Of a DNA stretch of 64,000 nt, positions 5,843-42,562 are shown piece after piece; within the stretch, counting starts at the first letter, position 1, and every line of letters starts with the position of its first letter. The notes under the pieces were generated by a model. The model was given only the letters and a program-made list of their open reading frames with translations, was not told where the DNA came from and searched no databases. The stretch lies in contig NZ_AUAM01000016.1 in assembly GCF_000428725.1 (NCBI RefSeq), positions 1-64,000 of the forward strand, written 5' to 3'. Both the position numbers and the translations under genes were made by a program. The stretch is from Psychromonas aquimarina ATCC BAA-1526. GTDB lineage: Bacteria; Pseudomonadota; Gammaproteobacteria; Enterobacterales; Psychromonadaceae.

Positions 5843-8332
5843 TTAAATTGCCAGCTCTTTTTCCAGCATGCTGATAATGCCTGCTTCATCTTTACTGTCG
5901 CGCAGCTGATCGCGGAAACTCTCATGAATCAGTTTACGTGCCAGGCTGGAGAAGATACGCATATGCTGATCGCCTTGTTCTTTATTTAAGGTCAGCATAA
6001 TAACCACATCCACATCACCGGAATCAGACTGCCAGTCAATGGGTTTATTAAGGTGGGCAATACTGATACTCGAGTCGCGGATATGCTCAGATTTAGTATG
6101 CGGAATCGCAAAACCGTGTCCCAGCGCGGTAGAGAATACAGCTTCTCTTGCCCAGATATCTTCCTCCAGTTTATAGGTATTCTCGGTGCGTCCGTGCAGG
6201 CCTAAATTACCAACCATTGACTGAATCACTTCCTCTTTACAGGAAAAATCGGCATTCTTTAAGACACACTCTGTAGATAACAGCGGTTTACTTTCCTGAG
6301 TGGCAGAAGCCTTATCCAGCAGTGCCTGTACATCGGTTATGGTCGGACACAAGCAGGCTTGTTCAAAAAGCTCTTGGCAGTCGCTGCTGTTAAGTTTGCT
6401 GAGGGCTGCTTTAGCCGGGGCTATTTTAGGCGCGCTCATGCTGATTTCATCTAAACCGGCACCGATCAGCAGCGGCAGTACTTTGGCATCTGCGCCGAGC
6501 TCGCCGCATAAACCGACCCAGTGGCCGTACTGGTGTGCGGTACTGACTACCTGATCCAGCATACGCAGGAAGGAGGGCGCCAGACTGTTATACAGGTGCG
6601 CTACGCTGTCATTATCGCGGTCCACGGCGAGCAGGTACTGGGTCATATCATTTGAGCCGATACTGAAAAACTCAACTTCCTGACAGAACTGATCAATAAT
6701 AAATGCAACGGCTGGAATCTCTACCATAATGCCCAGCGGCACATCGTTGTCAAATTCCAGCTCCTGTGCTGTCAGTCTGTTTTTTACTATTTCTATCTGC
6801 TCTTTAACCCAGCGGATCTCTTCAATGCTCTGGATCATCGGGATCATGATTTTCGCATTACCATGTAAAGAAGCCCGAAGAATGGCACTAAGCTGGTTAT
6901 GGAAAAGGTCGATAAAGGCCGGATAAATACGCACGGCACGGTAACCTAAGAAGGGGTTAGCTTCCTGCGGCAGATTCAGATAATCAATGGGTTTATCACC
7001 GCCGATATCCATGGTGCGGATGATCACCGGTTTATCACCGGCCGCCTGTAAAACCTGACGGTACTGCTGGTACTGCTCCTCTTCCTTAGGCGCTTCACTG
7101 CGGTCCATAAACAGCATTTCCGTGCGGAATAAACCAATGCCCTGTGCTCCTTTTTCAAATGCCGGCTGCGCTTCAACGGAGCAGGCAATATTAGCTGCAA
7201 TTTCAATACCTTTACCGTCACTGGTTTGTGCGGAAAGGGCAGCATAAGCACCTTGTTTGTCGCTTAGCTGCTGGTTCAAAGTGATAGCGCGGTCAAAGTA
7301 GCAGCGTACTCCTTCATTGGCCTGCACCGCCAGTACACCGAGGCTGGCATCCAGATACACTTCACTGTTTAGAGCATCTGTACACTGGGCGGCTTCAATG
7401 CCCGATAATGTCGGGATATTAAAGGCACGTGCCAGAATAACCGTATGTGAAGTACTGCCTGCATGGGTAAGTATTAACCCCTGCAGCAGCTCTTTATCCA
7501 GACCAAGAAACTGGCTTGGCGTCAGGTCATTAGCGATAACAATCGACGGCTCAGTTAAGGTTAGCTTAGCCGTGATTTTAATGTCCGGGTAAGCTGCACA
7601 GAGAAGCTGCGTGGCAACATCGCGTATATCCACAACACGCTCACGCAGATAAGCACTGGATGACTGTTCCAGCTGCTGACTGACGGTTTCAAGACTGGCT
7701 AATACTGCATTGGCTGTTGACTGGCCGGCCAGATGTTTCTTGATATCATCAACAAAAGTGATGTCGTTAAGAATAGACAGGTGTGCGCTGATAATCTCTT
7801 TTTCAGCACCGTCGGCACCTTGTACTGCCAGCTCGAGGTTATTAGTGACCTGCTGGCGGGCATTATCAAAACGGGCGGTTTCATCATACTGGATTTCTGT
7901 GCGGAACAGGTTGAGATTGATATCTTCATTGCCGATTAAAAGGCCTTTGCCTATGCCTAATGCCAGGCATTTGCCCTGCAGCAGAGTCGGCTGGTGGCGC
8001 AGCAGCGACTGCGGCAGTACGATAGCTTCACTGGCACCGGGTTTATCTAAAGCCTGATCGCAGTGAGCAAATTCATTATTAATATATTGGGTCAGTTTGT
8101 GCAGCGCCTGCCGGCTGTCTTGACCGTCAAAAGTAAGAATACAAGCGTCATTAAGCAGGGTGTCGGTGCCGACTAAAGATAATACACTTTTAGCATTACC
8201 CGTATTGCCGCTGCGCAGGTTGGTCAATGTGATCTCACAATCAAACTGTTTACACACTTTTTCCAGGTGGCTGGCCGGACGTGCGTGAATACCGTTTACA
8301 AGACTACAGTTAAATTTTAATTCATTTTTCAT
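5843..8332 (-). CDS. multiphosphoryl transfer protein: HPr - Enzyme I - fructose-type IIA
   Basis: This 829-residue PTS protein has three phosphoryl-transfer domains. They are HPr (GIHARPAS, H16), Enzyme I (STSHTVILAR, H296, followed by the PEP-binding barrel with GIGLFRTE and the C-terminal SIGSNDMTQY signature) and fructose-type IIA (FAIPHTKSEH, H745). The order matches E. coli FryA/FrwA rather than FruB. It can take phosphate from PEP and pass it to a IIB without the general EI and HPr. The ATG at 8332 is preferred over an ATG 36 bases upstream: it has AAGG in front, does not overlap the IIB gene, and gives the family's usual N-terminus. No IIC gene is attached, so the permease partner must be elsewhere (41386-42441 is a candidate). 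Confidence 0.93.
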   Translation of the reverse strand: MKNELKFNCSLVNGIHARPASHLEKVCKQFDCEITLTNLRSGNTGNAKSVLSLVGTDTLLNDACILTFDGQDSRQALHKLTQYINNEFAHCDQALDKPGASEAIVLPQSLLRHQPTLLQGKCLALGIGKGLLIGNEDINLNLFRTEIQYDETARFDNARQQVTNNLELAVQGADGAEKEIISAHLSILNDITFVDDIKKHLAGQSTANAVLASLETVSQQLEQSSSAYLRERVVDIRDVATQLLCAAYPDIKITAKLTLTEPSIVIANDLTPSQFLGLDKELLQGLILTHAGSTSHTVILARAFNIPTLSGIEAAQCTDALNSEVYLDASLGVLAVQANEGVRCYFDRAITLNQQLSDKQGAYAALSAQTSDGKGIEIAANIACSVEAQPAFEKGAQGIGLFRTEMLFMDRSEAPKEEEQYQQYRQVLQAAGDKPVIIRTMDIGGDKPIDYLNLPQEANPFLGYRAVRIYPAFIDLFHNQLSAILRASLHGNAKIMIPMIQSIEEIRWVKEQIEIVKNRLTAQELEFDNDVPLGIMVEIPAVAFIIDQFCQEVEFFSIGSNDMTQYLLAVDRDNDSVAHLYNSLAPSFLRMLDQVVSTAHQYGHWVGLCGELGADAKVLPLLIGAGLDEISMSAPKIAPAKAALSKLNSSDCQELFEQACLCPTITDVQALLDKASATQESKPLLSTECVLKNADFSCKEEVIQSMVGNLGLHGRTENTYKLEEDIWAREAVFSTALGHGFAIPHTKSEHIRDSSISIAHLNKPIDWQSDSGDVDVVIMLTLNKEQGDQHMRIFSSLARKLIHESFRDQLRDSKDEAGIISMLEKELAI

Positions 8333-8346
8333 GGAGTTGGCCTTAT

Positions 8347-8658
8347 TCATTTCATCAATTTCTGACACTGGGAAAAAATATTCTGGGGTTTCTTAAGTGC
8401 ATCCTGAATACTGACGTTGATGCATAACTTGCTTTCAAAGCGTTCGCCGTATTCGACTCTGATATCGGCCGCCATTACCACAATATCTGCCCTGTGAATG
8501 TCCTGCTCGGTGAGACGGTTTTCGATACCCATTGCTCCCTGAGTCTCAACCTTAATGGGAATACCGAGTTTTTTAGCGGTATCACTGAGTTTATCAGCGG
8601 CCATATAGGTATGTGCGATACCTGTAGGACAGGCGGTAACTGCGACAACTTTCATCAT
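8347..8658 (-). CDS. fructose-type PTS IIB component
   Basis: This 103-residue stand-alone IIB has the phosphocysteine loop ACPTGIAHTYMAA (C10 if the first of two Met codons is used), the signature of the fructose/mannitol IIB family. The start follows AAGGAG at good spacing. The stop lies 14 bases before the HPr-EI-IIA gene, so the two form an operon. The closest paralogue in the window is the IIB at 53006, which shares the VAVTACPTGIAHTYMAAD core. Promoter-proximal operator sequence is at 8704-8760. Confidence 0.92.
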   Translation of the reverse strand: MMKVVAVTACPTGIAHTYMAADKLSDTAKKLGIPIKVETQGAMGIENRLTEQDIHRADIVVMAADIRVEYGERFESKLCINVSIQDALKKPQNIFSQCQKLMK

Positions 8659-8703
8659 TATCTCCTTAAGAGAGGATTATTTTTGATGATGCTAATATAG
8701 AAG

Positions 8704-8760
8704 TTTGCTGAAATGTTTAGTAGAAGAGAAAGCAACCCTTTGCTGGACATTTGTAACACC
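8704..8760. promoter_or_regulatory. candidate operator of the IIB/HPr-EI-IIA operon
   Basis: Two blocks, TTTAGTAG at 8716 and CTGGACATTTGTAACACC at 8743, recur with the same 35-base spacing between TTTAGTAG and TTGTAAC upstream of the IIABC gene (51766 and 51793). The second block also resembles a site upstream of the IIC gene (42544). All are about 85-120 bases before their start codons. An AraC-type regulator is the likely binder. Confidence 0.5.
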
Positions 8761-8804
8761 TGAAAATAAGCGTGATCGAGGTCTCGTTTACAAGGGCAGG
8801 TAAG

Positions 8805-8823
8805 CGGACAGTTAAACTGTCCG
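8805..8823 (-). terminator. hairpin after the GH18 gene
   Basis: Nine-base arms CGGACAGTT and AACTGTCCG flank a single base. There is no T-run after it on the minus strand, so it may stabilise or weakly terminate the GH18 transcript instead of being a strong terminator. Confidence 0.45.
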
Positions 8824-8847
8824 GTGCATGATTTAGTAAGAGCAGGG

Positions 8848-9813
8848 TTACTGCGCCTTGTCCCGGCCCATCAGCTCCCACATCTGATGGGCGATGCTGT
8901 ACTGCGGAATGCCCTGTTCATCAAGGCTGTCGGTATCCACCCGCCAGGCGAAGATGCCTCGGGCGCCGTGCTCTCTGGCGATATCAATAAACGGCTGCGG
9001 TGAATCAGACGGGCGGTTGTGGATTTCACTGGCTAAACCGATTAGCATTTTTGATACATCCACACCGCTGTCTGCAAACTGGTCGATAAAATGGAAGCGC
9101 TCGCCCCAGTAAGTCTGCAGGTTTACATAATCAAAATTATCATTAACCACTTTTCCATCCCATACCGCCAGTGAGGTATGATCCGGTGTAATAGTTAACA
9201 GATAGGGATTATCACCGCGCTTATCTTCAATGCTTGCTTTGTCCAGGCGTTCTCTGAGTGCCTTAACCAGCGCTGTAAACTGAGGCAGGGTAATAGGATC
9301 TCCTTCAATTTCATAATCCATATCGAAACCGTCAAGCTTATGAGCACGTATCATTGTAACTACGCTTTCGGCAAATACCTGCGGATTCTGTGCGCTTTTC
9401 CAGTAATCCTGTATGCTCCAGCCTTCAGAAATAAGCAGTTTAATATCAGGATTTTTTTCACGGGCTAATTCAACTATCTGGTCGATACGCTCCTGATCGC
9501 TGAAAGGCGCTTCTTTATGAGCATTTTCATAACCTAACTCGTAGATTCCGTCACCATCTTGATCATAGGGATGAGCAAAAGCGATATACACAAAATCCAT
9601 CTTTTCAAAGGGGGTATCATCGCGCAGGCGGTTTTCCCAGTCATCACCAAAAATACCAAAAAAGTGACCTATCAGCTGGGTATTTTCTGCTTTATCCCGG
9701 CTGCTCTTTCCTTGACTGCTGTCGATACTGCTGCAGCCGCTTAATGCTGTCAGAGCAAGCGCTATGGTCAGCAGTGTGATTGTGAATATATATTTTTTTA
9801 CTATCTTGAACAT
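8848..9813 (-). CDS. GH18 endo-beta-N-acetylglucosaminidase/chitinase-like lipoprotein
   Basis: This 321-residue lipoprotein has the lipobox LSGC followed by S-S, which predicts the outer membrane. The GH18 catalytic motif reads DGFDMDYE, with E168 as the acid and D166 as the helper. The later strand motif YVNLQTYW also fits the GH18 barrel. GH18 includes chitinases and the Endo F/H/S enzymes that cut the chitobiose core of N-glycans. The gene follows a GH92 alpha-mannosidase by 105 bases on the same strand and sits beside four more, which argues for N-glycan release. Without an alignment, chitin-oligosaccharide hydrolysis cannot be excluded. Confidence 0.85.
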   Translation of the reverse strand: MFKIVKKYIFTITLLTIALALTALSGCSSIDSSQGKSSRDKAENTQLIGHFFGIFGDDWENRLRDDTPFEKMDFVYIAFAHPYDQDGDGIYELGYENAHKEAPFSDQERIDQIVELAREKNPDIKLLISEGWSIQDYWKSAQNPQVFAESVVTMIRAHKLDGFDMDYEIEGDPITLPQFTALVKALRERLDKASIEDKRGDNPYLLTITPDHTSLAVWDGKVVNDNFDYVNLQTYWGERFHFIDQFADSGVDVSKMLIGLASEIHNRPSDSPQPFIDIAREHGARGIFAWRVDTDSLDEQGIPQYSIAHQMWELMGRDKAQ

Positions 9814-9886
9814 GGAGTTTTCCTAAGTTATCTGGCATTTATGAGGGATAGAAAGATGTATGTATTTCTTTATCGGGGCAGTGAAG

Positions 9887-9908
9887 CCACCGCATATTAA
9901 TGCGGCGG
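9887..9908 (-). other. intercistronic hairpin between GH92 and GH18 genes
   Basis: Arms CCACCGCAT and ATGCGGCGG pair with one G-T. No T-run follows on the minus strand, so read-through from the GH92 gene into the GH18 gene is likely, with the hairpin protecting the upstream message. Confidence 0.4.
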
Positions 9909-9918
9909 CGGTTTGGGA

Positions 9919-12213
9919 TTAAGACTGGGGAGGTGTTGCACTCATAACAAAGTGCAGGGTACCGCCGGCTTTAAATTCGCTGTGGTCAAAGAACAGACCT
10001 TCGCTCAGCGGCTGACCGTTAATGCTGACCGATTTGACATATAAATTGTCCGGGCCGTTATTTTCTGCAGTAATGGTAAATTCACCGTTTTCTACCGGTA
10101 TGGTCGCTTTGTCAAACAGCGGGCGTCCTATGGTATAGGTACTGTCTCCCGGCGTTATCTGATAGAAACCTAATGCGCTTAAGACGTACCAGGCGGACAT
10201 CTGACCGACATCTTCATTACCGACAATGCCTTCGGGAGTTGCCAGATAAAACTCTTCGAGGATCTGGTCAACATACTCCTGGGTTTTCCACGGCGTACTG
10301 GTGTAGTTATACAGATAAGGCACATGCTGATCCGGTTCATTACCATGTACATACTGGCCGATTAAACCTGTCATATCTGCTGTGCCTTCCTGCTCTTCAG
10401 CATTAAATAATCCGTCCAGATTTTTCCTGAAGTCCTCTTCGCCGCCCATCAGTGTTTTTAAACCGTTGATATCATGCGGAGCAAACCAGGTCCACTGCCA
10501 GCTGTTTCCTTCGGTATAATCACCGGTTTCATGCTCGGCATTGTAGGGGTCAAAAGGTGTACGCCAGCTGCTGTCTAATAATACCGGACGCATAAAGCCG
10601 CTGACATTATGCTCACTGTATTCAGCCGGGTTATAGTCGAAATAACGCTCAAAACCTTTAGAGCGCTGCATATAAGTATCATATACCTGCTGATTACCGG
10701 CGAGCTGCGCAATCTGCGCGATACACCAGTCGTAATAAGCATTCTCTAAGCCGTAGGAGACTGACTCGGCGGTTTCATCTGCCGGTGCAAATCCTTCTTC
10801 ATCTATATATTTGATATGCAGGGTCATTACTTTACTGAGCAGTTCCTGGTCCCAGTGCTGGAAGTCTTCTGGATGCCAGGTAGAGCTGGCAATACCTGCC
10901 AGCATTGCATCTTCAAAGTCCTGTGGGGTGAATTCCTGCGGGTATTTGATCATCGCATCGGCAATCACAGATACCGCCGGGTAACCGACCATAGTGCCGG
11001 TGTAGTTACCGTGCAGTTCCCATTTCGGCAGCAGACCGCCTTCTTTTTGTTTTTGGATTAAATTCATGGCGTAATCTACGGCACGCTGCGGTTCGGTGAT
11101 GGTTTTCAGCGGATGCAGAGCACGGAAGGTATCCCACATGGAGTAAACCGTGTAGTTGGTTTTGCCGTCGAAGTTCTGGTAAATGTTTTTATCCATGCCC
11201 GGATACTGACCGTCCACATCCTGATGGATCATCGGCGCCAGTTTAGTGTGATAAAGCGCGCTGTAGAAAATAGTTTTTTCTGTTTCTGTGCCGCCTTCAA
11301 TCTGGAAGCTCTCTAAGCTGTCTTTCCACTTGTTTTCTGCCTGAGCACGGGCCTGATCAAAGTTTATGGATGCTGCTTCAGCATTAAGATTGTCTTCAGC
11401 GCCTTGTGTGCTGACCGGTGACAGGGCGACTTTTATTTCGATCGGACTCTCTGAAGGTTCAAACTCAATAAAGCTGACCACATCTTTACCGTTAGCCGTG
11501 CTGCCGTCGACCTGTTCTCCTTCATTAGTGATAGTGTATGACTTGATAGGCGATGAAAATTTGGCGATAAAGAATACCTGTTGACCATCTGCCCAGCCGC
11601 CGCTGATACGTTTACCTATAATGGTGTTTTCATCTACAAAGGTGATTTCATTTTCCAGGCTTACTCCGCCCCAGTCTTCATTGAGGGTATGACCGAGATC
11701 CACTTTTAGTTTCTGAGACTGCTGATCTGCGTATGTGTAGCGGTGCAGGCCGACACGCTGTGTTGCGGTCAGCTCTGCATTAATACCTGAATCATCCAGC
11801 TTAACCTGATAATAACCGGCACCCGCCTGTTCATTACTTTTCTGGAATTTTGAAGACTCACGCTGCTGATCATCACTGTAGGGCATAAACAGAATATCGC
11901 CGAGATCCCCGATACCGGTGCCGCTTAAATGGGTATGGCTGAAGCCGTATACCGTGTCGTCATCGTAATGATAGCCGCTGGAAGAGTGCCAGCCGGTTAA
12001 ATGTGTATCCGGGCTAAGCTGCACAAAACCTTCCGGCACAACTGCACCCGGGAAAGTGTGGCCGTTGAACCCGGTGCCGATAAAGGGATCAACATACTGC
12101 AGTACATTGACCGGTTCGGACGGATCCGTCTCCTCAGTTGTTTCTGAGTTGCAGCCTGCTAGTGATGTAATGGCGGCGGTGAGTGCAATGACCAGTGTGC
12201 GTTTTTTGAACAT
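9919..12213 (-). CDS. GH92 alpha-mannosidase lipoprotein (copy 1)
   Basis: This 764-residue protein is an exo-acting, calcium-dependent alpha-mannosidase of family GH92. The lipobox is LAGC (C21) followed by Asn, so outer-membrane sorting is expected. GH92 marks are the N-terminal VDPFIGTG, the SHTHLSGTG loop, the YSMWDTFRA core strand, YTEGNSWQW with E568 as the presumed acid, and the GNEDVGQMSAWY acidic motif near the C-terminus. It is closest by eye to copy 4 (shared YDWCIAQIA and NEPD(Q/H)H segments). It leads the minus-strand GH18 operon and is divergent from copies 2-5. Which linkage it cuts (alpha-1,2, 1,3, 1,4 or 1,6) is not readable here. Confidence 0.95.
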   Translation of the reverse strand: MFKKRTLVIALTAAITSLAGCNSETTEETDPSEPVNVLQYVDPFIGTGFNGHTFPGAVVPEGFVQLSPDTHLTGWHSSSGYHYDDDTVYGFSHTHLSGTGIGDLGDILFMPYSDDQQRESSKFQKSNEQAGAGYYQVKLDDSGINAELTATQRVGLHRYTYADQQSQKLKVDLGHTLNEDWGGVSLENEITFVDENTIIGKRISGGWADGQQVFFIAKFSSPIKSYTITNEGEQVDGSTANGKDVVSFIEFEPSESPIEIKVALSPVSTQGAEDNLNAEAASINFDQARAQAENKWKDSLESFQIEGGTETEKTIFYSALYHTKLAPMIHQDVDGQYPGMDKNIYQNFDGKTNYTVYSMWDTFRALHPLKTITEPQRAVDYAMNLIQKQKEGGLLPKWELHGNYTGTMVGYPAVSVIADAMIKYPQEFTPQDFEDAMLAGIASSTWHPEDFQHWDQELLSKVMTLHIKYIDEEGFAPADETAESVSYGLENAYYDWCIAQIAQLAGNQQVYDTYMQRSKGFERYFDYNPAEYSEHNVSGFMRPVLLDSSWRTPFDPYNAEHETGDYTEGNSWQWTWFAPHDINGLKTLMGGEEDFRKNLDGLFNAEEQEGTADMTGLIGQYVHGNEPDQHVPYLYNYTSTPWKTQEYVDQILEEFYLATPEGIVGNEDVGQMSAWYVLSALGFYQITPGDSTYTIGRPLFDKATIPVENGEFTITAENNGPDNLYVKSVSINGQPLSEGLFFDHSEFKAGGTLHFVMSATPPQS

Positions 12214-12407
12214 AAGAGACCTCTAGTTTAAGTGAATCAAACACGATGTAATTTATTAACAGTGCGTCCCAGCATGCTCTGCTGCGCTCCGGCAGTCTTC
12301 ATAGAGACGATATTATGCTTTGATACTTACCAAGAGATAGGTGAAAAATGTGCTTTTTATAGGACTTATGTAACCAGGAAAATGTTTTGTGACTGCACTC
12401 TCAATAA

Positions 12408-12671
12408 GGGCCTGTTTATCTTTGCTCTTTGTTCCTGCTGGAGGCTATTTTTGTGCTCAGCAAGGCAGAAGTCATGCAGTGTAGTCACTCTACATTAATG
12501 ACTGATAACGATGTTGAGTGTAAAAATAGCCCCAGCCCTTCGGGTTGAGGCTGAAAATCCCTCACTCTGCGTTGCTCATCACTCATTTAGAACAACTAAA
12601 CTTCATTCTTCGCGCCTTGATTGAGAAACTTTCAGTCTCAACAGGGGCAATTTTCAAAGATAAACAGGCCC
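12408..12671. repeat. MITE-like inverted-repeat element in the GH92 divergent promoter region
   Basis: The ends GGGCCTGTTTATCTTTG (12408-12424) and its exact complement (12655-12671) bound 264 bases without a gene. Inside, the two halves are related to each other: each contains an AAGGC...GAA...AGT motif followed by ATGA and GAGTG. The second half (AAGGCGCGAAGAATGAAG on the minus strand) resembles a repeat I recall as common in marine gammaproteobacteria. It lies in the 655-base gap between GH92 copies 1 and 2. The remainder of that gap (12214-12407 and 12672-12868) must hold both promoters, but I can point to no clear boxes. Confidence 0.6.
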
Positions 12672-12868
12672 TAGATAAAAGCGTTGTAAATGAGAGCATT
12701 ATCTCACTTTTCCGGGGCGGGTAATTTAGTCCAGTAATTGCGTCAATAATCCCATTTAAAGCATTGCGAAGCGCAGGTTAGTATTTCTGCGCAAAAAACA
12801 AACAGCAGTGAAATTCCCCGTACAGTCTGGTTATCTGCATGGGGATCTTTATCAGATTAGGAGTGGTT

Positions 12869-15178
12869 ATGTTTAAACGTTCTATTGTAACGCTTGCAGT
12901 TGCAGCCGTAGTCGGCCTCAGCGGTTGTAATTCCGAAGACACTAATTCAGGAGAGGGCGGCGATCAGCCTGAATATTATAAAGTGCTTGATTATGTTGAT
13001 CCGTTTGTCGGTACCGGCCCTGACGGGCATACTTTTCCCGGAGCGGTTTATCCTTCCGGTATGGTGCAGTTAAGCCCGGATATCACTATGGAAGGCTGGG
13101 GCTCGGCAGCCGGTTATTTTGATGACGGCACCATCCATGACATTCCGGTTTACGGTTTCAGTCATACTCACTTAAGCGGCACCGGTATTACCGATCTCGG
13201 GGATATATTAATACTGCCCTATGCGGATCAGAAAAATGCCGTTTATAACACTTTTGATAAAGACTCTGAAAGCGCGACACCCGGGTATTATTCGATGCTG
13301 TTAAAGCGCGATAATATTAAAGCGGAGCTGACCGCCAGCCCGCGTGTGGGTTATCATAAATACAGTTTTGCCGAGGATCAGATTCAGTTTATTAAACTAG
13401 ATTTAGCGCATACCCTGAATGCCAGCTGGGGTAACGATCCGGATCCGACCTTCAATGAAATTGAAATCATTGATGAGTATACGGTTCGCGGTCATCGTAA
13501 GAGTAATTTATGGGCGAAAAATCAAAGCGTCTATTTCTATGCGAAATTCTCTTCTCCGATTATCAGCAGCAGAATCGTTGCCGATGATATTGATATTGAT
13601 TTGTCAGAGTCCAGCGGCAATATCGAAGCGAACGAAATAGTCTCTTACTTTGAGTTTGCGCCTTCAGATAAACCGCTTGAAGTCCGTCTGGCTATATCAC
13701 CAACCAGTGTACAGGGCGCGCAGTTAAACCTTGAAGCTGAAGTTCCTGACTGGGGATTTGACAATGTATTGGCGAATGCACAGAAAACCTGGGCGGATGA
13801 GCTGAGCAGCGTTGCAGTTGAGGGCGGTACAGCAACCGAGAAGACCAACTTCTATACCGCGCTTTATCATACTCAGATTGCGCCGATGATTTTCCAGGAT
13901 GTTGACGGCCAGTACCGTGCTATGGATCCGGAGCAGACGATTAAACAGGCAGACGAAACACCGAATTATACGATTTATTCCATGTGGGATACCTTCCGTG
14001 CCTTCCATCCGCTGCAGACGGTTATTAATCCAGATAAAGCGCAGGATTATGTGAATGATCTTATTCGTAAACAGCAGGACGGCGGCTTACTGCCGAAATG
14101 GGAACTGCACGGTCATTATACCGGTACTATGGTTGGTTATCCGGCGGTATCGATTATAGCCGATGCGGTCACCAAAGGTTTTGAAGTTGATATTAACGAT
14201 GCGCTGCACGCTCTGAAAGAAACCACTATTTATGATCTGTCGCGTTTTCCTGACTGGGATCAGGGAACGCTCGGCGGGGTGCAGAATATTCAGATGCAGG
14301 ATCATATCAATCTGGGTATTGTGCCGCACGGCTGGTGGAACTCCGCATCCTACGGTATTGAATACTCCTATTATGACTGGGCCGTTTCTGAAGTTGCCGC
14401 GATTGCCGGTGACGAAGTAACTAAACAGGAATATCAGAAACGTTCTCAATATTATCTTAATTACTGGGATCCGCAGGAACGTTACTTCCGTGCAGTTAAT
14501 GCAGACGGCTCATTTTATCTGCCTGAAGGAGAAACTGAATTTGACCCCTACCTTGTTGATGAGTTTGCCTTTACCGAAGGTAATGCATGGCAGTGGAAAT
14601 GGCAGATTTTCCATGACTTTGACAATCTAGAAACCTTGATCGGCGGCCCGGATCAGTTTAAGCAGGATCTGCTGGCACTCTTTGAAGCGGATGAGTCAAC
14701 CAGCGGTGAAGATCTGCCGGATATGACCGGATTTATTGGCCAGTATATGCATGGTAATGAGCCTTCACATCATATTGCTTATTTGTGGAACAGAACCGAT
14801 GAAGCATGGCGTACCCAGGAGTATCTGGATCGGGTGATGCGTGAGTTCTACACACCGACACCGGACGGGCTGATCGGTAATGAAGATGTCGGACAGATGT
14901 CAGCCTGGTATGTGCTGAGTGCCATGGGCTTTTATCAGGTAACACCGGGCATTCCGGAATACACCATAGGTCGTCCGCTGTTCAGCAGGGTAGAAATAAA
15001 ACTGCCGGACGGGGTGTTTACTATTACTGCGAATAATAACAGTCCGGCTAATAAGTATGTTAAAGAGGTGACTATCAATGGTGTGCCGTTAGGTAAAAAC
15101 TGGACATTTAAACATAGCGATATTACCGCAGGCGGCGAGCTGCGTTTTGAAATGACAGGTAAAAAGCCTGCTTCATAA
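12869..15178 (+). CDS. GH92 alpha-mannosidase lipoprotein (copy 2)
   Basis: This 769-residue protein has the lipobox LSGC (C20) then Asn, predicting the outer membrane. The start at 12869 (MFKRS...) is chosen over an ATG 30 bases earlier because AGGAG lies just before it and the signal peptide then begins normally. GH92 motifs: VDPFVGTG, SHTHLSGTG, YSMWDTFRA, FTEGNAWQW (E570) and GNEDVGQMSAWY. It pairs most closely with copy 3 (shared VGYHKYSF and NEPSHH). It ends at a terminator-like hairpin, so it may be transcribed separately from copy 3. Confidence 0.95.
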   Translation: MFKRSIVTLAVAAVVGLSGCNSEDTNSGEGGDQPEYYKVLDYVDPFVGTGPDGHTFPGAVYPSGMVQLSPDITMEGWGSAAGYFDDGTIHDIPVYGFSHTHLSGTGITDLGDILILPYADQKNAVYNTFDKDSESATPGYYSMLLKRDNIKAELTASPRVGYHKYSFAEDQIQFIKLDLAHTLNASWGNDPDPTFNEIEIIDEYTVRGHRKSNLWAKNQSVYFYAKFSSPIISSRIVADDIDIDLSESSGNIEANEIVSYFEFAPSDKPLEVRLAISPTSVQGAQLNLEAEVPDWGFDNVLANAQKTWADELSSVAVEGGTATEKTNFYTALYHTQIAPMIFQDVDGQYRAMDPEQTIKQADETPNYTIYSMWDTFRAFHPLQTVINPDKAQDYVNDLIRKQQDGGLLPKWELHGHYTGTMVGYPAVSIIADAVTKGFEVDINDALHALKETTIYDLSRFPDWDQGTLGGVQNIQMQDHINLGIVPHGWWNSASYGIEYSYYDWAVSEVAAIAGDEVTKQEYQKRSQYYLNYWDPQERYFRAVNADGSFYLPEGETEFDPYLVDEFAFTEGNAWQWKWQIFHDFDNLETLIGGPDQFKQDLLALFEADESTSGEDLPDMTGFIGQYMHGNEPSHHIAYLWNRTDEAWRTQEYLDRVMREFYTPTPDGLIGNEDVGQMSAWYVLSAMGFYQVTPGIPEYTIGRPLFSRVEIKLPDGVFTITANNNSPANKYVKEVTINGVPLGKNWTFKHSDITAGGELRFEMTGKKPAS

Positions 15179-15214
15179 ACCGCCTCTATAGTAGTATTTT
15201 AAGTTGTACGTAAG

Positions 15215-15248
15215 TGCTTGTTATTAAATGTGATAACAGGCATTTTTT
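15215..15248 (+). terminator. intrinsic terminator after GH92 copy 2
   Basis: A 10-bp stem (TGCTTGTTAT with ATAACAGGCA, one G-T pair) is followed directly by six T residues. It separates copies 2 and 3, whose gap of 239 bases also has room for a promoter. Confidence 0.8.
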
Positions 15249-15417
15249 GCTTTCTGTTATTTACCCGGTAGATAACATGAGAGGCAAATCACATCATTTT
15301 TCGCTGGTTACAAATGTGCAGCTAATGCGTAATTAATTCTATATCCGTGCCTTTTTATTTTTCACATAATCCCTGCATATTCATTATTTATAAAAAGTAA
15401 TTATCCAAGGAGATATT

Positions 15418-17721
15418 ATGTTTAAGAAAAGGTTTGTTCCGCTGGCTATAGCAATGGCTCTGGGCATATCAGGATGTAATTCTGATTCAAGCAGCGAAGA
15501 AGGCGGCGGCGGTGACGGCGGAGTCGTTGATACAAATGTGCTTGATTATGTGGATCCGTTTATCGGTACCGCGGCTTCCGGTCATACTTTCCCCGGCGCG
15601 GTTGTTCCTCAGGGCATGGTGCAGCTGAGCCCGGATACAACCTTAGAGGGCTGGGACTCTGCCAGTGGTTACCATGATGCCAGTGATTATAAGAAAGGCA
15701 TCATTATCGATAAAGATATTCCCGTTTACGGTTTCAGCCATACCCATCTTAGCGGTACCGGCGTCACCGATTTAGGCGACATATTAGTTCTGCCTTATAC
15801 AAGTGAAGAAAATGCCGAGCAGAATACCTTTGATAAAGACTCCGAGCAGGCCTCGGCCGGTTATTACAAAGTGGTGTTAAATGATTCGCAGATTGAGGCG
15901 CAGTTAACCACATCAACACGTGTTGGTTATCATAAATACAGCTTCCCGGAAGGCAGTGACAGAAAAGTCAAACTGGATATCGGCCATACTTTGAAAGCCA
16001 ACGGCGGCGAGAGCATTGTTAATGAGATTGAAGTGGTTGATGCTTATACCGTACGCGGTTACAGAAAAAGCGGCTCCTGGGTTAAAAATCATAAGATATA
16101 TTTCTATGCTAAATTCTCCGCACCGATTGCTGAGGCCTTTACACGTAATCAGGACGACGAACAGCGTCCGCTAGTTTATGGTGAAGTACAGAGTGATATT
16201 GATATTGCCGCTTATTTAGATTTCGGATCAGAAAGCAGCGAGGCGGTTGAAATCCGTGTTGGTCTGTCGCCGGTAGACTGGCAGGGAGCAGAGGCTAATC
16301 TGGCTGCTGAAGTGCCTGATTTTGGTTTTGACAAGGTGAAGACGGATGCTGAAGCTGCCTGGAGCAAAGAGCTGTCGGTGATTGAAGTAAAAGGCGGCAC
16401 GGATGTCGAGAAAACCAATTTTTACAGCGGCTTTTATCACAGCCAGATTGCACCGATTGTGTTTGAAGATGTGGACGGCCGCTATCGTGACTTATTAGGC
16501 AATATTCGCGAAGGCAGCGGATTAACTAACTACTCAATTTATTCGATGTGGGATACCTTCCGCGCCGTGCATCCGCTGCAGACTATTATCTATCCGCAGC
16601 GTGCGCAGGACTTTGCAAATGATCTGATCCGCAAACAGCAGGAAGCCGGTATTCTTCCTAAATGGGAAGCTCATTCAAGCTACACGGGCACCATGATAGG
16701 TTACCCGTCGGTGGCGATTATTGCCGATGCTATTGTTAAAGGTATGGATGTGGATCCGAATACAGCACTGCTGGGTGCCGTTGAAAGCTCAACCTATCAT
16801 CCGGAAGATTTCCCGCAGATCCCTGATGAAACTTTGGCGTCATTGATGCCGGGACAGTACAGCTATTACGAAGCATATAAGTACATCCAGGTACCAAACT
16901 GGAACTCGGTTTCCTATGCGCTGGAGATGTCTTATTACGACTGGACTATTGCGCAGATTGCTTTGGCTGCCGGTAATACCGCCGCTTATGATAAATATAT
17001 GGATCGCAGCACCTGGTCGCAGAATCACTGGGATCCGGAAGAGAAGTACTTTGTTCCCGTTGACGAGAACGGTGACAAGATTGCCGAGTTTGACCCGTAC
17101 AAGGTGGATCACTACTGGTTTACGGAAGGTAATGCATGGCAGTGGCAGTGGACACTGATGCAGGATCTGGATCGTTTAACCGAATTAATGGGCGGCACAA
17201 ACGGTTTGAATCAGAAATTAGACGAGTTGTTTACTGCAGAGTCTAATGAAGGTGATCTGCAGGATATGACAGGTTATATCGGTCAGTATGTACATGGCAA
17301 TGAACCTTCTCACCATGTGATCTATTTATACAACCGTACCAATGAAACCTGGAAAACTCAGGAATATCTAGATCAAGTTTATAAGGACTTTTACCACAAT
17401 GGCCCCGACGGTCTGATTGGTAACGAGGATGTTGGTCAGATGTCCGCCTGGTACATTATGAGCGCTATGGGTTTCTATCAGATCACGCCTGGAGACCCGA
17501 CTTACACTATCGGCCGTCCAATATTTGATGAAGTCATTATTAACCTGCCTGACGGTGAGTTTAAAGTGACTGCTGAAAATAATGGTCCGAATAACCTCTA
17601 TGTGAAGGAAGTGACCATTAACGGTAAACCTCTGGATCAGTTTAATACCTTCAAACACAGTGAAATTTATGCCGGTGGTGAACTGCATTTTGTAATGACC
17701 GCCGAGAAACCAGCAATATAA
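15418..17721 (+). CDS. GH92 alpha-mannosidase lipoprotein (copy 3)
   Basis: This 767-residue protein starts at an ATG preceded by AAGGAG. The lipobox ISGC (C20) is followed by Asn and then a glycine-rich linker, so the enzyme is probably tethered to the outer membrane. GH92 motifs include VDPFIGTA, SHTHLSGTG, YSMWDTFRA, FTEGNAWQW (E570) and GNEDVGQMSAWY. It carries a longer loop after YHDASDYKKG than copy 1, similar in place to the YFDDGTIHD loop of copy 2; these loops border the substrate pocket in GH92 structures, so linkage preference may differ. It has its own terminator. Confidence 0.95.
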   Translation: MFKKRFVPLAIAMALGISGCNSDSSSEEGGGGDGGVVDTNVLDYVDPFIGTAASGHTFPGAVVPQGMVQLSPDTTLEGWDSASGYHDASDYKKGIIIDKDIPVYGFSHTHLSGTGVTDLGDILVLPYTSEENAEQNTFDKDSEQASAGYYKVVLNDSQIEAQLTTSTRVGYHKYSFPEGSDRKVKLDIGHTLKANGGESIVNEIEVVDAYTVRGYRKSGSWVKNHKIYFYAKFSAPIAEAFTRNQDDEQRPLVYGEVQSDIDIAAYLDFGSESSEAVEIRVGLSPVDWQGAEANLAAEVPDFGFDKVKTDAEAAWSKELSVIEVKGGTDVEKTNFYSGFYHSQIAPIVFEDVDGRYRDLLGNIREGSGLTNYSIYSMWDTFRAVHPLQTIIYPQRAQDFANDLIRKQQEAGILPKWEAHSSYTGTMIGYPSVAIIADAIVKGMDVDPNTALLGAVESSTYHPEDFPQIPDETLASLMPGQYSYYEAYKYIQVPNWNSVSYALEMSYYDWTIAQIALAAGNTAAYDKYMDRSTWSQNHWDPEEKYFVPVDENGDKIAEFDPYKVDHYWFTEGNAWQWQWTLMQDLDRLTELMGGTNGLNQKLDELFTAESNEGDLQDMTGYIGQYVHGNEPSHHVIYLYNRTNETWKTQEYLDQVYKDFYHNGPDGLIGNEDVGQMSAWYIMSAMGFYQITPGDPTYTIGRPIFDEVIINLPDGEFKVTAENNGPNNLYVKEVTINGKPLDQFNTFKHSEIYAGGELHFVMTAEKPAI

Positions 17722-17728
17722 AACCGAC

Positions 17729-17760
17729 AAGGTAAGGGACTGATTATCCCTTACCTTTTT
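17729..17760 (+). terminator. intrinsic terminator after GH92 copy 3
   Basis: A perfect 10-bp stem (AAGGTAAGGG with CCCTTACCTT) with a 9-base loop is followed by a T-run. Copy 4 begins 97 bases later. Confidence 0.9.
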
Positions 17761-17856
17761 CTACACAGTTCCCTGCCGTTTTTTAATTCTTCTCTAATAG
17801 AGAGGCGGCTTAACTGTATCTGAATTTTACGATTATTTAAGATTTATGGAGATAAT

Positions 17857-20253
17857 ATGTTTAAACGTTCATTAATCATCAGCTCCGCTGTTTTGTCGAT
17901 CGGCCTGTTCGGCTGTGATGACCAGGCGCAGGAAAGCCCCTCTGATCAAACATCGCAGTTACTGCAGTATGTTGACCCTTTTATCGGTACTGACGGCCTG
18001 GGTAATGTTATTCCCGGGGCCGTTGTGCCGGAAGGAATGATCCAGCCGAGCCCGGATGGTGCCAAAGAGGACGGCACACCGACGGATTACCACTACTCCA
18101 ATGACCGTATTACAGGTTTCAGTAATACCCATATTTCCGGAGCGGGTAAAGGGGATATGAATGATTTCGCCTTTATGCCCTATAGCGGTTTTAACTCAGG
18201 TACGGCAAGCATAGATAAAACCTCCGAAATTTCTGTACCCGGCTATTATTCGGCATTTTTAAAAGAGACCCAGATAACCACTGAACTGACCGCAACAAAA
18301 CGGGTTGCTTTCCATCGTTATACCTTTCCGGAAAATCAGGAGAAAAAAGTCAAACTGGATGTAGGTCATGAGCTGCTGGGAGAGTGGGGTAACCATACTC
18401 GTGAAATCACCTTTAAAATAATCGGTGATAATGCCGTAGCAGGCATGCGGGTAAGTAATGAATGGGCGCAGTACCAGACCGTCTATTTTTATGCTGAATT
18501 CTCACAGCCCTTTGATTCCTATCTGATTTTAAATGAAGGAGTACAAACCACTGAGACAGAAATTAACAGCAGCCGCGATGTGATTGCCCATTTTAACTTT
18601 GCCGCCGCGGATGATCCGCAGCTGCAGATGAAAATCTCAATTTCACCGCTCAGTATTGAAGGCGCGCAGAACAATATGGCTGCGGAAAGCAGTGCTTTTG
18701 AATTTGATCTGGTACGTGAACAGGCGTCTAAAGCCTGGGGCGAGGTACTGGAAAAATTCCAGCTGAAAGGTGGTACTGATGCTGAGAAAACCATGTTTTA
18801 TACGTCACTTTATCATACTTACTTTGCACCTTTTGTTTATCAGGACAGTGACGGTCAGTATCGCGGCATGGACGGTAAGGCTTATCAGGCGGCTGAAGGT
18901 TTCACTAACTACTCGGTTTATTCGATGTGGGATACCTTCCGGGCGGCTCATCCGCTGAAAACAATTCTCGATAAGCAGCGTTCAGTGGAATATGTGCATG
19001 ACCTGCTTAATAAATATAAAACCGGCGGTGTGCTGCCTAAGTGGGAGCTGCATTCCGATTACACTGGTGAAATGGTGGGTTACCCTGCGGTTTCAGTGAT
19101 TGCCGATACCATGATTAAATATCCGGATGCTTTTAGCCAGCAGGACTTTGAATTAGCCATGCAGGCCGCTGAGGTAAGCGCCAACTTTGATATGAGCATT
19201 ACTGATGACTGGATCCCTTACCAGGACTCCTGGAACGGCGATAAACGCTGGATAGTAATGACCCGTCACGGTGAGTACCAGGAAGAGCTCGGTTATGTAC
19301 CCGCGGATATTAAAGATAACCCGGCAGATGTCTACGATACCATAGTCAATGAGTCGGTTTCTTATGGTTTAGAAAATGCCTACTACGACTGGTGTATTGC
19401 GCAGATTGCCCGCCTTGCGGGGGACACAGTGCAGGAAGCCCGTTATCTGGAACGTTCAAAAGCCTTTAAAAACTACTTTGACTACAACCCGGCTGAATAC
19501 GGCCAGTATAGTTCAACTGGTTTTATGCGCCCGAAAAATCTGGACGGCTCCTGGGTGAATAATATGTCTTCCTGTGAAGGAGATGACTGTGAAGGGGAGC
19601 CGAATGACTACTTCTGGCCCTATAAAGCCGAACACCGCGGCGAGAACTTCACCGAAGGTAATACCTGGCAGTGGACCTGGTTTGCACCGCACGATATAAA
19701 CGGCCTGAAAGAGGTGATGGGTGGTGAACAGAGCTTCCTGGCTAACCTGAATGCGCTGTTTAATGCGGATTCCGATGCCGATACCAGTCAGGGAGATATG
19801 ACCGGTTATATCGGTCAGTACGTACATGGTAATGAGCCGGATCATCATGTTATCTATCTTTACAACTATACCAGTGAGCCCTGGAAAACCCAGGAATATC
19901 TGGATCAGGTCATGGATAACTTCTACCTGCCTACACCAGAGGGATTAATCGGTAATGAAGATGTCGGACAGATGTCAGCCTGGTACATCATGAGCGCCAT
20001 GGGTTTCTATCAGATATCACCTGCGGAGCCGGTTTATACCATAGGCCGTCCGCTGTTTGATGTGATGGAAGTGACCATTGACGGAGGTACTTTTACCATT
20101 ACGGCGGAGAATAACAGCCCGGATAATATCTATGTGGAATCGGTAACCATCAATGGTAAAAAACTCGATGCTAATAACACCTTTAATCATAACGAAATTT
20201 ATCCCGGAGGGCAGCTGCGCTTTGTTATGAGCAGCAGTAAACCGGCACTTTAA
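17857..20253 (+). CDS. GH92 alpha-mannosidase lipoprotein with C-D-D sorting signal (copy 4)
   Basis: This 798-residue protein is the longest of the five. The lipobox LFGC (C20) is followed by Asp-Asp. In enterobacteria Asp at +2, especially with an acidic +3 as in AcrA, keeps lipoproteins in the inner membrane, so this enzyme may face the periplasm from there. Catalytic motifs are present: YSMWDTFRA, FTEGNTWQW (E600) and GNEDVGQMSAWY. The extra length is mostly an insertion near residues 445-500 and a loop with two cysteines (SSCEGDDCEGEPND), which could form a disulphide. It is closest to copy 1. The next gene starts 68 bases later without a terminator, so copies 4 and 5 form an operon. Confidence 0.95.
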   Translation: MFKRSLIISSAVLSIGLFGCDDQAQESPSDQTSQLLQYVDPFIGTDGLGNVIPGAVVPEGMIQPSPDGAKEDGTPTDYHYSNDRITGFSNTHISGAGKGDMNDFAFMPYSGFNSGTASIDKTSEISVPGYYSAFLKETQITTELTATKRVAFHRYTFPENQEKKVKLDVGHELLGEWGNHTREITFKIIGDNAVAGMRVSNEWAQYQTVYFYAEFSQPFDSYLILNEGVQTTETEINSSRDVIAHFNFAAADDPQLQMKISISPLSIEGAQNNMAAESSAFEFDLVREQASKAWGEVLEKFQLKGGTDAEKTMFYTSLYHTYFAPFVYQDSDGQYRGMDGKAYQAAEGFTNYSVYSMWDTFRAAHPLKTILDKQRSVEYVHDLLNKYKTGGVLPKWELHSDYTGEMVGYPAVSVIADTMIKYPDAFSQQDFELAMQAAEVSANFDMSITDDWIPYQDSWNGDKRWIVMTRHGEYQEELGYVPADIKDNPADVYDTIVNESVSYGLENAYYDWCIAQIARLAGDTVQEARYLERSKAFKNYFDYNPAEYGQYSSTGFMRPKNLDGSWVNNMSSCEGDDCEGEPNDYFWPYKAEHRGENFTEGNTWQWTWFAPHDINGLKEVMGGEQSFLANLNALFNADSDADTSQGDMTGYIGQYVHGNEPDHHVIYLYNYTSEPWKTQEYLDQVMDNFYLPTPEGLIGNEDVGQMSAWYIMSAMGFYQISPAEPVYTIGRPLFDVMEVTIDGGTFTITAENNSPDNIYVESVTINGKKLDANNTFNHNEIYPGGQLRFVMSSSKPAL

Positions 20254-20263
20254 CAACACTGCT

Positions 20264-20294
20264 GCACTCTGACGCTGTAGTGCTGTCAGAGTGC
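20264..20294 (+). other. intercistronic hairpin between GH92 copies 4 and 5
   Basis: A perfect 10-bp stem (GCACTCTGAC with GTCAGAGTGC) has an 11-base loop and no T-run. It most likely protects the upstream message or lowers read-through, rather than ending transcription. Confidence 0.5.
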
Positions 20295-20321
20295 CGCCTA
20301 ACTGAAAAAACTGGAGTTCTT

Positions 20322-22616
20322 ATGTTTAAACGTTCACTGACTGCAACAGCTGTTGCAGTTGCTTTATCTTTTGCGCTGGCCGGCTGCGATGATGAATCGA
20401 CAGATACTAGCGTGCCTGAGCCGAGCCTGGATCTGGTGCAGTATGTTGATCCGCTGATCGGTACCGGCGGACTGGCGAATACTTACCCGGGAGCGACGGT
20501 TCCCCACGGCATGGTGCAGCTGAGTCCGAATAACGGCAGCGGCGGCTGGGATTATATCAGCGGCTACAGTTATCATGACGACCGTCTGGTCGGTTTCAGT
20601 CATACTCAGCTTTCCGGTACAGGAGCGGGGGATCTCAATGATATTCTGCTTATGCCCTTTAACAGCCGCTCGGATCAGAAACGTGGTGATCAGGAAGCTT
20701 CCTATTTCAGCCATGATAATGAGCAGGCACAAGCTGGTTTCTACAGTGTACTGCTTGATGATTACGGCATTGAAGCCGAGTTGACCACAACCAGCCGCGT
20801 TGGTTTTCACCGTTATACCTTCCCTCAGGATACAGACTCTAAAGTGGTGCTTAACCTGGGTTATGCCCTGAATTGGGATTCACCAACGGATACTGTGATC
20901 CGGGTGGTGGATGAAACAACAATAGAAGGCTACCGCTATTCCACCGGCTGGGCTGCCGATCAGCGCGAACATTTTGTAATTAAATTTTCCAAGCCGATGA
21001 CCGGATTTGAATTGAGAGATGATCTTAATGACCAGATAGAGAACGGCTCTGAAGTACAAAGCTCACATACGCGCGGCTATTTCAGTTTCGACAGCAGTGA
21101 AGCGGAAACTGAGGTTCTGGTGAAAGTGGCGTTATCGTCGGCGGATATTGAGGGGGCTTATAAAAACCTTGAGCATGAGCTTCCGGGCTGGGATTTTGAT
21201 CAGACCAGAACAGCCGCCAGTCAGGCATGGCAGGATGAACTGCAGAAAGTGCGTGTCAGCAGTGATGATGAAACAAAAAAACGTATCTTCTATACCGCTG
21301 TTTATCACTCCTATTTAGGTCCGACACTGCATTCCGATGTCGACGGACGTTATAAAGGCGCGGATCATCAGGTTCAGCAGGCGCAGGGATTTGACCGTTA
21401 CGATACCTTCTCATTATGGGACACTTACCGTGCCACTCATCCGCTGCAGACGCTGCTGGAGCCTGAGCGGGTTAGTGATATGGTGAACTCCATGCTGGCA
21501 CATTATCAGGAAACCGGACTGCTTCCAGTGTGGTCGTTCAAAGGCAATGAAACCAATATGATGCTCGGTTATCATTCAGTACCGGTTATTGTTGATGCCT
21601 GGTTAAAAGGAATTGACGGATTTGATCCGCAGCTGGCGCTGCAGGCGATGAAGGATTCTGCTGACTCTCCGCGCGAAGAGATAGTTCTTTATCGAGAAAA
21701 TGGTTATGTACCTTATTCTGAGGAAGAGGGCGGTGACGGCTGGGCTGCTTCAAGAGCGATGGAATACTCCTATGATGACTGGGGCATTGCGCAGATGGCA
21801 AAATCACTGGGTGATCAGGCAGGTTATGAGCACTTCAGCAAACAGGCTAAAAACTGGGAAAACCAGTATGATGACAGCCGCGGCTGGTTTGTACCGAGAC
21901 TGGAAAACGGTCAGTTTATTGCCGACTTTGATCCGGAACGTTATGAAGCCGGTTTTGCCGAAAGTAACGGCTGGCAGTATTTCTGGCATGTACAGCATGA
22001 TACGGCCGGGGTGATTGATAAACTGGGGCAGGAAGCTTATATACAGCGTTTAGATGATCTCTTTGAAACTACGCCGGATCCTGAGCAGGAGCTGCCTATC
22101 TTCAGCACCGGTATGGTCGGACAGTACGTACAGGGCAATGAGCCGGATCATCATGCGCCTTATCTGTTTAACTACGTCGGTCAGCCCTGGAAAACTCAGA
22201 AATGGCTGAAAGAAATTGTCGATGTCTGTTATACGGATCAGCCGGAAGGTATCTGCGGTAATGATGATTACGGGCAGATGTCCAGCTGGTACGTGTTCAG
22301 CGCAATGGGTTTCTACCCGGTAAACCCTGCGGATCAGCGATATATTATCGGCAGCCCGATTTTCCCGAAAGTGGAGCTGAATCAGCCGAACGGTAATACC
22401 TTTACCATCACAGCAGAAAATATTTCCGAGCAGAATATTTATATTCAGTCAGTTTCTCTCAATGATATCAGCCTGGATCGTTCATGGATCAGCCATGACG
22501 AGATAACTCAGGGCGGCACACTGTCATTTGTAATGGGAGATACACCGAACCAAAGCTGGGCATCAACGCCGGAAGCTTTTCCGCCTTCGTGGACAGCAGA
22601 GGGGGGAGTTAAGTAA
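20322..22616 (+). CDS. GH92 alpha-mannosidase-like lipoprotein with C-D-D signal (copy 5, divergent)
   Basis: This 764-residue protein starts at the ATG at 20322, which has GGAG before it; an upstream in-frame ATG has no ribosome site. The lipobox LAGC (C22) is followed by Asp-Asp, the inner-membrane retention pattern shared with copy 4. It is the outlier of the five: FSLWDTYRA replaces YSMWDTFRA, FAESNGWQY (E547) replaces the EGN motif, and GNDDYGQMSSWY replaces the NEDVG form. The GNDD form is the one I associate with Bacteroidetes GH92, so linkage preference probably differs. The last two codons and stop lie inside a dispersed repeat, so the native C-terminus may have been altered. Confidence 0.93.
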   Translation: MFKRSLTATAVAVALSFALAGCDDESTDTSVPEPSLDLVQYVDPLIGTGGLANTYPGATVPHGMVQLSPNNGSGGWDYISGYSYHDDRLVGFSHTQLSGTGAGDLNDILLMPFNSRSDQKRGDQEASYFSHDNEQAQAGFYSVLLDDYGIEAELTTTSRVGFHRYTFPQDTDSKVVLNLGYALNWDSPTDTVIRVVDETTIEGYRYSTGWAADQREHFVIKFSKPMTGFELRDDLNDQIENGSEVQSSHTRGYFSFDSSEAETEVLVKVALSSADIEGAYKNLEHELPGWDFDQTRTAASQAWQDELQKVRVSSDDETKKRIFYTAVYHSYLGPTLHSDVDGRYKGADHQVQQAQGFDRYDTFSLWDTYRATHPLQTLLEPERVSDMVNSMLAHYQETGLLPVWSFKGNETNMMLGYHSVPVIVDAWLKGIDGFDPQLALQAMKDSADSPREEIVLYRENGYVPYSEEEGGDGWAASRAMEYSYDDWGIAQMAKSLGDQAGYEHFSKQAKNWENQYDDSRGWFVPRLENGQFIADFDPERYEAGFAESNGWQYFWHVQHDTAGVIDKLGQEAYIQRLDDLFETTPDPEQELPIFSTGMVGQYVQGNEPDHHAPYLFNYVGQPWKTQKWLKEIVDVCYTDQPEGICGNDDYGQMSSWYVFSAMGFYPVNPADQRYIIGSPIFPKVELNQPNGNTFTITAENISEQNIYIQSVSLNDISLDRSWISHDEITQGGTLSFVMGDTPNQSWASTPEAFPPSWTAEGGVK

Positions 22617-29333: not shown

Positions 29334-29376
29334 CTTTAAATGTGGTTTGTGATTCTATTTAACAAGTGAGAGTGCT

Positions 29377-42441: not shown

Positions 42442-42523
42442 CACAATCACTCCATTTTTACGTTTAATTTAAATATTGCTGTTTTGTTGGGAGGATTATG
42501 GAACTGAAGCAGATAGAAATATA

Positions 42524-42562
42524 TTGGACAAATAGGGTATTAACTGGACAAATGTATCAACC
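42524..42562. promoter_or_regulatory. candidate AraC-type operator of the IIC-IIB operon
   Basis: Two direct copies, TTGGACAAATA at 42524 and CTGGACAAATGTATCAACC at 42544, are 20 bases apart, two helical turns, as AraC proteins prefer. The second copy resembles the sites at 8743 and 51793. A half-matching CRP site (TGTGATATAGA) follows at about 42572. Confidence 0.5.

Follow-up and report, generated by a model that had tools for sequence, protein, structure and literature searches.

The 64-kb window analysed here, positions 1 to 64,000 of contig NZ_AUAM01000016.1 from the gammaproteobacterium Psychromonas aquimarina ATCC BAA-1526, encodes five glycoside hydrolases of family 92 (GH92A to GH92E), one enzyme of family 18 (GH18) and several gene blocks of the sugar phosphotransferase system (PTS; Table 1). 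This locus is probably a mannoside-utilization regulon, in which a set of exo-alpha-mannosidases is tied to a mannose PTS, with induction by mannose-6-phosphate and gating by CRP. Gene-level counts refer throughout to the 46 open reading frames (ORFs) scanned in the window.

The five distinct GH92 genes and the single GH18 gene, at the positions and on the strands proposed in an initial annotation of this DNA, are borne out by Pfam and NCBIfam profiles. All five GH92 ORFs encode complete domains (PF17678 and PF07971, with TIGR01180 above the cut-off) and are uninterrupted, and residues equivalent to the catalytic acid (Glu) and base (Asp) are retained in the alignment. No further GH92 match was obtained in the whole genome of 5,534,630 bases. 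Their pairwise identity is 38–56%, so they are not the products of a recent tandem duplication. According to PMC9522356, the Trp88/His584/Glu585 triad (BT3990 numbering) marks the characterized alpha-1,2 GH92 enzymes. None of the five window proteins has this triad, whereas BT3990, BT2199 and a gammaproteobacterial control from genome G073 have it in the same alignment; the roof Trp67 of BT3130 is conserved in GH92A, B, C and E, and not in GH92D. The terminal linkages cut by the window enzymes are, judged by sequence, more likely alpha-1,3 (perhaps alpha-1,6 or alpha-1,4) than alpha-1,2. The G073 control belongs to a GH92 set (C4:375001-415000; L047, L048) in which no PTS genes were matched and one GH92 carries the full triad.

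The tree and the residue table comprised 41 GH92 rows: 5 of the 14 distinct GH92 sequences in the PDB, the 5 window proteins and 31 proteins from other genomes, with SpGH92, EfMan, NnGH92, CcMan5 and the 2wvx chains left out and some GH92 ORFs removed by a length/motif filter, among them the ORFs of L052, L054 and L058 and the second ones of L049 and L050. In the IQ-TREE phylogeny, one clade unites GH92A–D with their orthologues (19 rows, 100/100) and another GH92E with its own (6 rows, 100/100). Both stand away from the alpha-1,2 references (98/99), with some deeper forks open and long branches flagged. The tree placement envisaged in the initial annotation was made with five reference enzymes, none of which falls within either window clade. 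The +1-subsite acid loops differ from clade to clade and are recognizably conserved within each clade across genera, which points to different tasks for the GH92 clades; given these loops and the absence of the reference enzymes used, the two clades are promising places to look for new mannosidase specificities. By sequence, the two window proteins searched have BT3130, BT3965 and B035DRAFT_03340 as their closest solved relatives. These likewise lack the triad, but the window enzymes are 34–43% identical to them, fall in the separate A–D and E clades and have clade-specific +1 loops. The fold of a GH92A model, which matched all listed GH92 structures with Z of 32–42, did not discriminate linkages (7zgm 41.8, BT2199 41.0, BT3130 39.8, BT3990 39.8). 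Inner-membrane sorting of the lipoproteins GH92D and GH92E, in which Asp follows the Cys, was considered but dropped, this residue not being kept by the orthologues. A plasmid search returned GH92 in 74 records, all below 60% identity to GH92B.

GH92 was detected in 3 of 60 genomes, that of P. aquimarina included, and, among 23 other Psychromonas members, in P. ossibalaenae (G016) and in none of the other 22. The gammaproteobacterial counterpart of Bacteroidetes loci announced in the initial annotation is less special than was implied, with GH92 matches in 17 of the 394 genomes of the order (16 above the family cut-off). P. ossibalaenae has the same order of the five GH92 genes (87–96% identical), GH18, EI, IIB, AraC, IIC, Uhp, ManA and ManP. 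Genome G342, of another genus (perhaps Vibrio), contains IIA and IIC followed by five GH92 genes, which belong in turn to clades E, C, D, B and A; all run in the same direction, with gaps of roughly 10–120 bases. Two genomes of a third genus (perhaps Aeromonas) combine four GH92 genes with IIABC; G370 also has AraC and ManA there, and G280 an isolated GH92 of clade B on a different contig. Orthologues of window clades A to E occur in G342 and in the pair G370/G280, where clade B is represented by G280 alone. In G068, ManA accompanies one GH92, and an IIC-type gene lies at C40:102075-103118. Other GH92 genes of the order adjoin, judged by eye, major facilitator superfamily-type transporter and kinase-like genes. 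A full-text literature search, from which subscription journals are mostly absent, returned no paper with both Psychromonas and GH92 and, among the papers on GH92 in Aeromonas or on GH92 with the PTS and mannose, none with a title on such a locus.

The EI and IIB genes next to GH18, to which the initial annotation tied uptake, are indeed PTS genes, but they make up one half of the system: the mannose PTS genes that are conserved are found 20–30 kb further on. IIB, IIC, UhpC/B/A/T, ManA, IIABC and two AraC genes are encountered 20 kb further along. In the published description of the Vibrio cholerae mannose system (PMC9392796), VC1826 (ManP) carries mannose and VC1827 is ManA. The AraC protein ManR (VC1825) binds both mannose-6-phosphate and DNA sites that contain AATCC; the manR-manP region has a putative CRP site, and the ManR regulon also takes in the PTS genes VC1820–VC1824. 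Compared by this description, the V. cholerae genes VC1823–VC1827 and the window share EIIABC with ManA after it and an AraC gene running divergently, EIIB and EIIA beside AraC, the AATCC core within an extended ManR site and, in that intergenic region as well, a CRP site. Unlike V. cholerae, the window adds five GH92 genes, GH18, a second AraC gene, an EI-HPr-IIA fusion and ManR-type sites before GH92 genes; the regulon section of the V. cholerae account lists PTS genes only. The Uhp genes sit within the mannose island in both Psychromonas species, and mannose-6-phosphate uptake by them would also feed ManR.

Shared putative promoter elements link the two gene sets. The motif ACAA[AT]AATCCAG occurs in 17 of 20 manP upstream regions collected, from which a 20-base matrix was built on 11 unique sites with the window excluded; each of the 46 window genes was then scanned on its own strand within 350 bases upstream. 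(The motifs of a de novo expectation-maximization search of promoter regions failed to hold in P. ossibalaenae and were dropped; the ManR motif used here comes from manP upstream regions.) The six best-scoring genes are manP, IIB, IIC, GH92A, GH92C and GH92B (chance of six of six, 8.5e-4), followed by the first AraC gene (7.6). Four of the window sites recur in P. ossibalaenae, three with identical 20 bases. The best three sites in 30 kb of G370, and likewise in 20 kb of G280, precede IIABC, GH92E and GH92A, with the third-best site at 16.9 compared with maxima of 12.1 and 11.1 in 200 simulated sequences each; G280 has another site (20.6) before its lone GH92B, and G068 one of 25.9 before the IIC-type gene. 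Site-to-start distances are 96–164 bases, except for 420 before GH92E and 370 before manP in P. ossibalaenae. Additionally, CRP-like sites (TGTGA-N6-TCACA, at most one mismatch) number five in the window, four of them before GH92A/B, GH92C, IIC and manP/manR; in 64,156 bases of P. ossibalaenae, all four such sites lie in the same four promoters.

Several observations weigh against this regulon. The motif is missing from 3 of the 20 manP upstream regions, and GH92D, GH92E, GH18, EI and ManA lack a good site of their own. Apart from that of manP, the single window sites are unexceptional by score alone (the best score in 100 simulated windows has a median of 14.2 and a maximum of 23.5), and the G342 site is weak (13.0). 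The favourable finding that scores of at least 11 occur in 5 of 16 PTS/GH genes and in 0 of 30 others (Fisher 0.003) depends on a 16-gene group chosen by the authors and on a cut-off picked after the first scoring of sites; the enrichment of CRP-like sites has P 0.011 given intergenic position, not the 8e-6 calculated over all bases. IIABC and IIC were first assumed to be a GH92-dedicated PTS, which their wide occurrence without GH92 refutes. IIABC relatives are found in 46 of the 394 order genomes (E up to 1e-150; 63–98% identical outside the own genome), 40 of which are not among the order's GH92 genomes, and the IIC-type gene is also common without GH92 (36 of 44 chosen genomes); this PTS therefore is a general one. 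Such widespread PTS genes and weak individual sites would fit a GH92 cluster and a mannose PTS that are neighbours by chance, with shared sites that are ordinary features of sugar-gene promoters. This explanation appears very unlikely in view of the co-directional PTS-GH92 run in G342, the high-scoring sites that G370 and G280 independently have ahead of GH92 genes, and the CRP-like sites in the same promoters of both Psychromonas species. The G342 run and the shared ManR-type and CRP-type sites also support the coupling to PTS uptake proposed in the initial annotation.

The product of the GH18 gene contains a GH18 domain (PF00704, E 9.8e-22) with the DxxDxDxE motif, in which D166 and E168 are invariant across four aligned GH18 sequences. 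Against the general GH18 profile it scores 78 bits vs 218–246 for three chitinase controls. The EndoS barrel profile PF23916 (cut-off 27) gives 29.2 and 28.5 bits in two orthologues compared with 16.1, 18.5 and no match in the controls, a weak indication of the core cleavage initially claimed, and the neighbours of GH18 by PDB sequence and by fold are mostly of the chitinase type (model pLDDT 67). A fold search did not separate the subtypes, the sole listed endoglycosidase, 6kpl, being at Foldseek rank 50. An endo-beta-N-acetylglucosaminidase is a possible reading of this sequence. The GH18 protein is 84% identical to that of P. ossibalaenae (contig NZ_KB906984.1), the only close orthologue in 394 order and 321 class genomes: 64 of the former have some match (best after the own genome and P. 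ossibalaenae, E 3.6e-9) and 6 of the latter, where the top match from a genome other than the own one has 36% identity over part of its length. GH18 and IIB are not adjacent in P. ossibalaenae but have about 6 kb of unrelated genes between them (L014 9824-15597; C18 about 79.8-85.6 kb), and just before IIB (G016:C18:85667-85912) lies the tail of another GH18, interrupted by two stop codons, which indicates that a tandem pair of GH18 genes once existed here.

Alpha-1,2-mannose caps high-mannose chains. A locus for high-mannose N-glycans, in which GH18 cuts the chitobiose core, the GH92 enzymes strip all mannose, GH20 removes N-acetylglucosamine and the KdgM porin imports the glycan, is unlikely: the missing triad, present in the G073 control, speaks against the complete removal of several linkages of this glycan claimed in the initial annotation, the PDB sequence and fold neighbours of GH18 are mostly of the chitinase type, the porin-GH20 stretch is set off by a transposase remnant and unmatched in the sister contig, and the PTS-GH92 loci of G342, G370 and G280 have no GH18-like gene in the stretches compared. 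In its favour are the EndoS barrel score, the adjoining GH20 and porin genes, and three GH38 genes elsewhere in the genome, which might supply other linkages and could provide the alpha-1,2 activity; GH125 was found in none of 6 genomes searched, where the control matched, and a GH47 search was uninformative, with no match but equally silent controls. The GH18 gene beside GH92 genes also recalls Bacteroides thetaiotaomicron, in which BT3987 (GH18) and three GH92 enzymes act in sequence on high-mannose N-glycan. That set resembles the window in joining GH18 and several GH92 in one locus but, unlike it, includes an alpha-1,2 enzyme; the window combines predicted PTS uptake with the absence of SusC and SusD, as initially annotated, and of TonB receptors from the Pfam matches of the ORFs scanned. 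In the Streptococcus pneumoniae EndoD/GH92/GH38/GH125 N-glycan system, sugars enter via ABC and PTS systems. It resembles the window in joining an endoglycosidase, for which GH18 is a candidate in the window, to GH92 and in PTS uptake, and differs in that SpGH92 is an alpha-1,2 enzyme, the partner is a GH85 and there is one GH92, not five.

The five GH92 proteins fall on the side of the alpha-1,3, mixed and alpha-1,4 references in the tree, a GH92 that cuts C6-sulfated alpha-1,3-mannan is known from marine Polaribacter, and fungi are reported from whale-fall sediment. These points would fit a locus for alpha-mannan of fungal or algal origin, such as alpha-1,3-linked diatom mannan or yeast mannan side chains. 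This reading is rather doubtful, with no sulfatase, GH76 or GH99 among the Pfam matches of the ORFs scanned and no obvious role for GH18 in mannan breakdown. For the mannoside regulon, the substrate could be paucimannose or a trimmed N-glycan, a side chain of fungal mannan or an alpha-1,3-mannan.

GH92A, GH18, IIB and EI-HPr-IIA follow one another on the minus strand, the first three spaced by 105 and 189 bases and the last two overlapping, and GH92B to E run in the opposite direction. The GH92E ORF was called from GTG; the P. ossibalaenae orthologue begins at the place of an internal ATG, which is therefore probably the true start. Past GH92E come a transposase remnant (23099-23455, a small ORF that weakly matches a DDE transposase and is a likely junction) and then the KdgM porin and GH20 genes, which are not counted as core because they have no match in the compared 64 kb of P. 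ossibalaenae, where most of the 27–39 kb region also lacks a counterpart. Within that region, 27011-33082 resembles a set for D-amino-acid use (a D-serine dehydratase-like protein, an RpiR regulator, an amidohydrolase, a RidA-type protein and a sodium:solute symporter), and 34897-36746 encodes two same-strand LysR regulators with overlapping reading frames. A 950-aa protein (55709-58561) has a HEYAH (HEXXH-type) motif, a weak beta-propeller match and 88.5% identity in P. ossibalaenae. The window contains no Rfam match and no tRNA detected by ARAGORN.

Table 1. Genes and putative regulatory sites of the mannoside locus (distances in bases).
Feature	Position	Strand	Remarks
PTS EI-HPr-IIA fusion	5843..8368	-	overlaps IIB gene
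PTS IIB, fructose family	8347..8658	-	profile matches
ManR-type site before IIB-EI	8739..8758	-	score 15.7, distance 100; same 20 bases in G016
GH18 enzyme	8848..9813	-	DGFDMDYE active-site motif and lipobox; possible endo-beta-N-acetylglucosaminidase
GH92A	9919..12213	-	clade A, predicted lipoprotein; heads possible GH92A-GH18 transcription unit
ManR-type site before GH92A	12356..12375	-	score 11.6, distance 162
CRP-like site	12388-12403		beside ManR-type site; before GH92A/B
ManR-type site before GH92B			score 9.1, distance 120
GH92B	12839..15178	+	clade B, predicted lipoprotein
CRP-like site	15278-15293		beside ManR-type site; before GH92C
ManR-type site before GH92C	15306..15325	+	score 11.3, distance 112; same 20 bases in G016
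GH92C	15418..17721	+	clade C, predicted lipoprotein; heads possible C-D-E unit
GH92D	17857..20253	+	clade D, predicted lipoprotein
GH92E	20280..22616	+	clade E, predicted lipoprotein
AraC-type regulator, ManR-like paralogue	39788..40630	-	
PTS IIB, fructose-like	41049..41363	-	
PTS IIC, fructose-like	41386..42450	-	NF007787 above cut-off
ManR-type site before IIC	42540..42559	-	score 12.1, distance 109; same 20 bases in G016
CRP-like site	42595-42610		near ManR-type site; before IIC
UhpC, UhpB, UhpA-like, UhpT	42661-47927		hexose-phosphate uptake
ManA, mannose-6-phosphate isomerase	48292..49488	-	
PTS IIABC, ManP-type mannose permease	49793..51700	-	
ManR-type site before manP	51789..51808	-	score 26.4, distance 108; strong, contains AATCC
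CRP-like site	52018-52033		no mismatch; manP/manR region
AraC-type regulator, ManR-type	52065..52949	+	divergent from manP
PTS IIB	53006..53314	+	
PTS IIA/HPr-like protein	53308..54078	+	

In the proposed mechanism, the five GH92 enzymes, predicted lipoproteins that each represent a separate conserved clade, would trim mannose off the non-reducing termini of an alpha-mannoside, and GH18 may release the chain from its carrier or shorten it. Free mannose would enter through fructose-family PTS permeases (the ManP-type IIABC, and IIC with IIB and the EI-HPr-IIA protein) as mannose-6-phosphate, which ManA would convert to fructose-6-phosphate for glycolysis. Mannose-6-phosphate acting on the ManR-type AraC activator would, together with CRP, raise expression of the PTS genes, GH92A-GH18, GH92B and GH92C-D-E, closing a positive loop. 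A more specific proposal, which we hold tentatively as a little less probable than its negation, is that in marine and aquatic gammaproteobacteria a ManR regulon that senses mannose-6-phosphate controls four to five GH92 subfamilies, each with a linkage specificity that is new and not duplicated by the others, which together dismantle an alpha-mannoside with caps other than alpha-1,2, such that the digestion product becomes the inducer via the PTS.

Most of what is established about GH92 comes from gut Bacteroides, where uptake is by SusC/SusD. The ManR/CRP-type, PTS-coupled and apparently mannose-6-phosphate-induced gammaproteobacterial version would represent a second logic of alpha-mannoside feeding.

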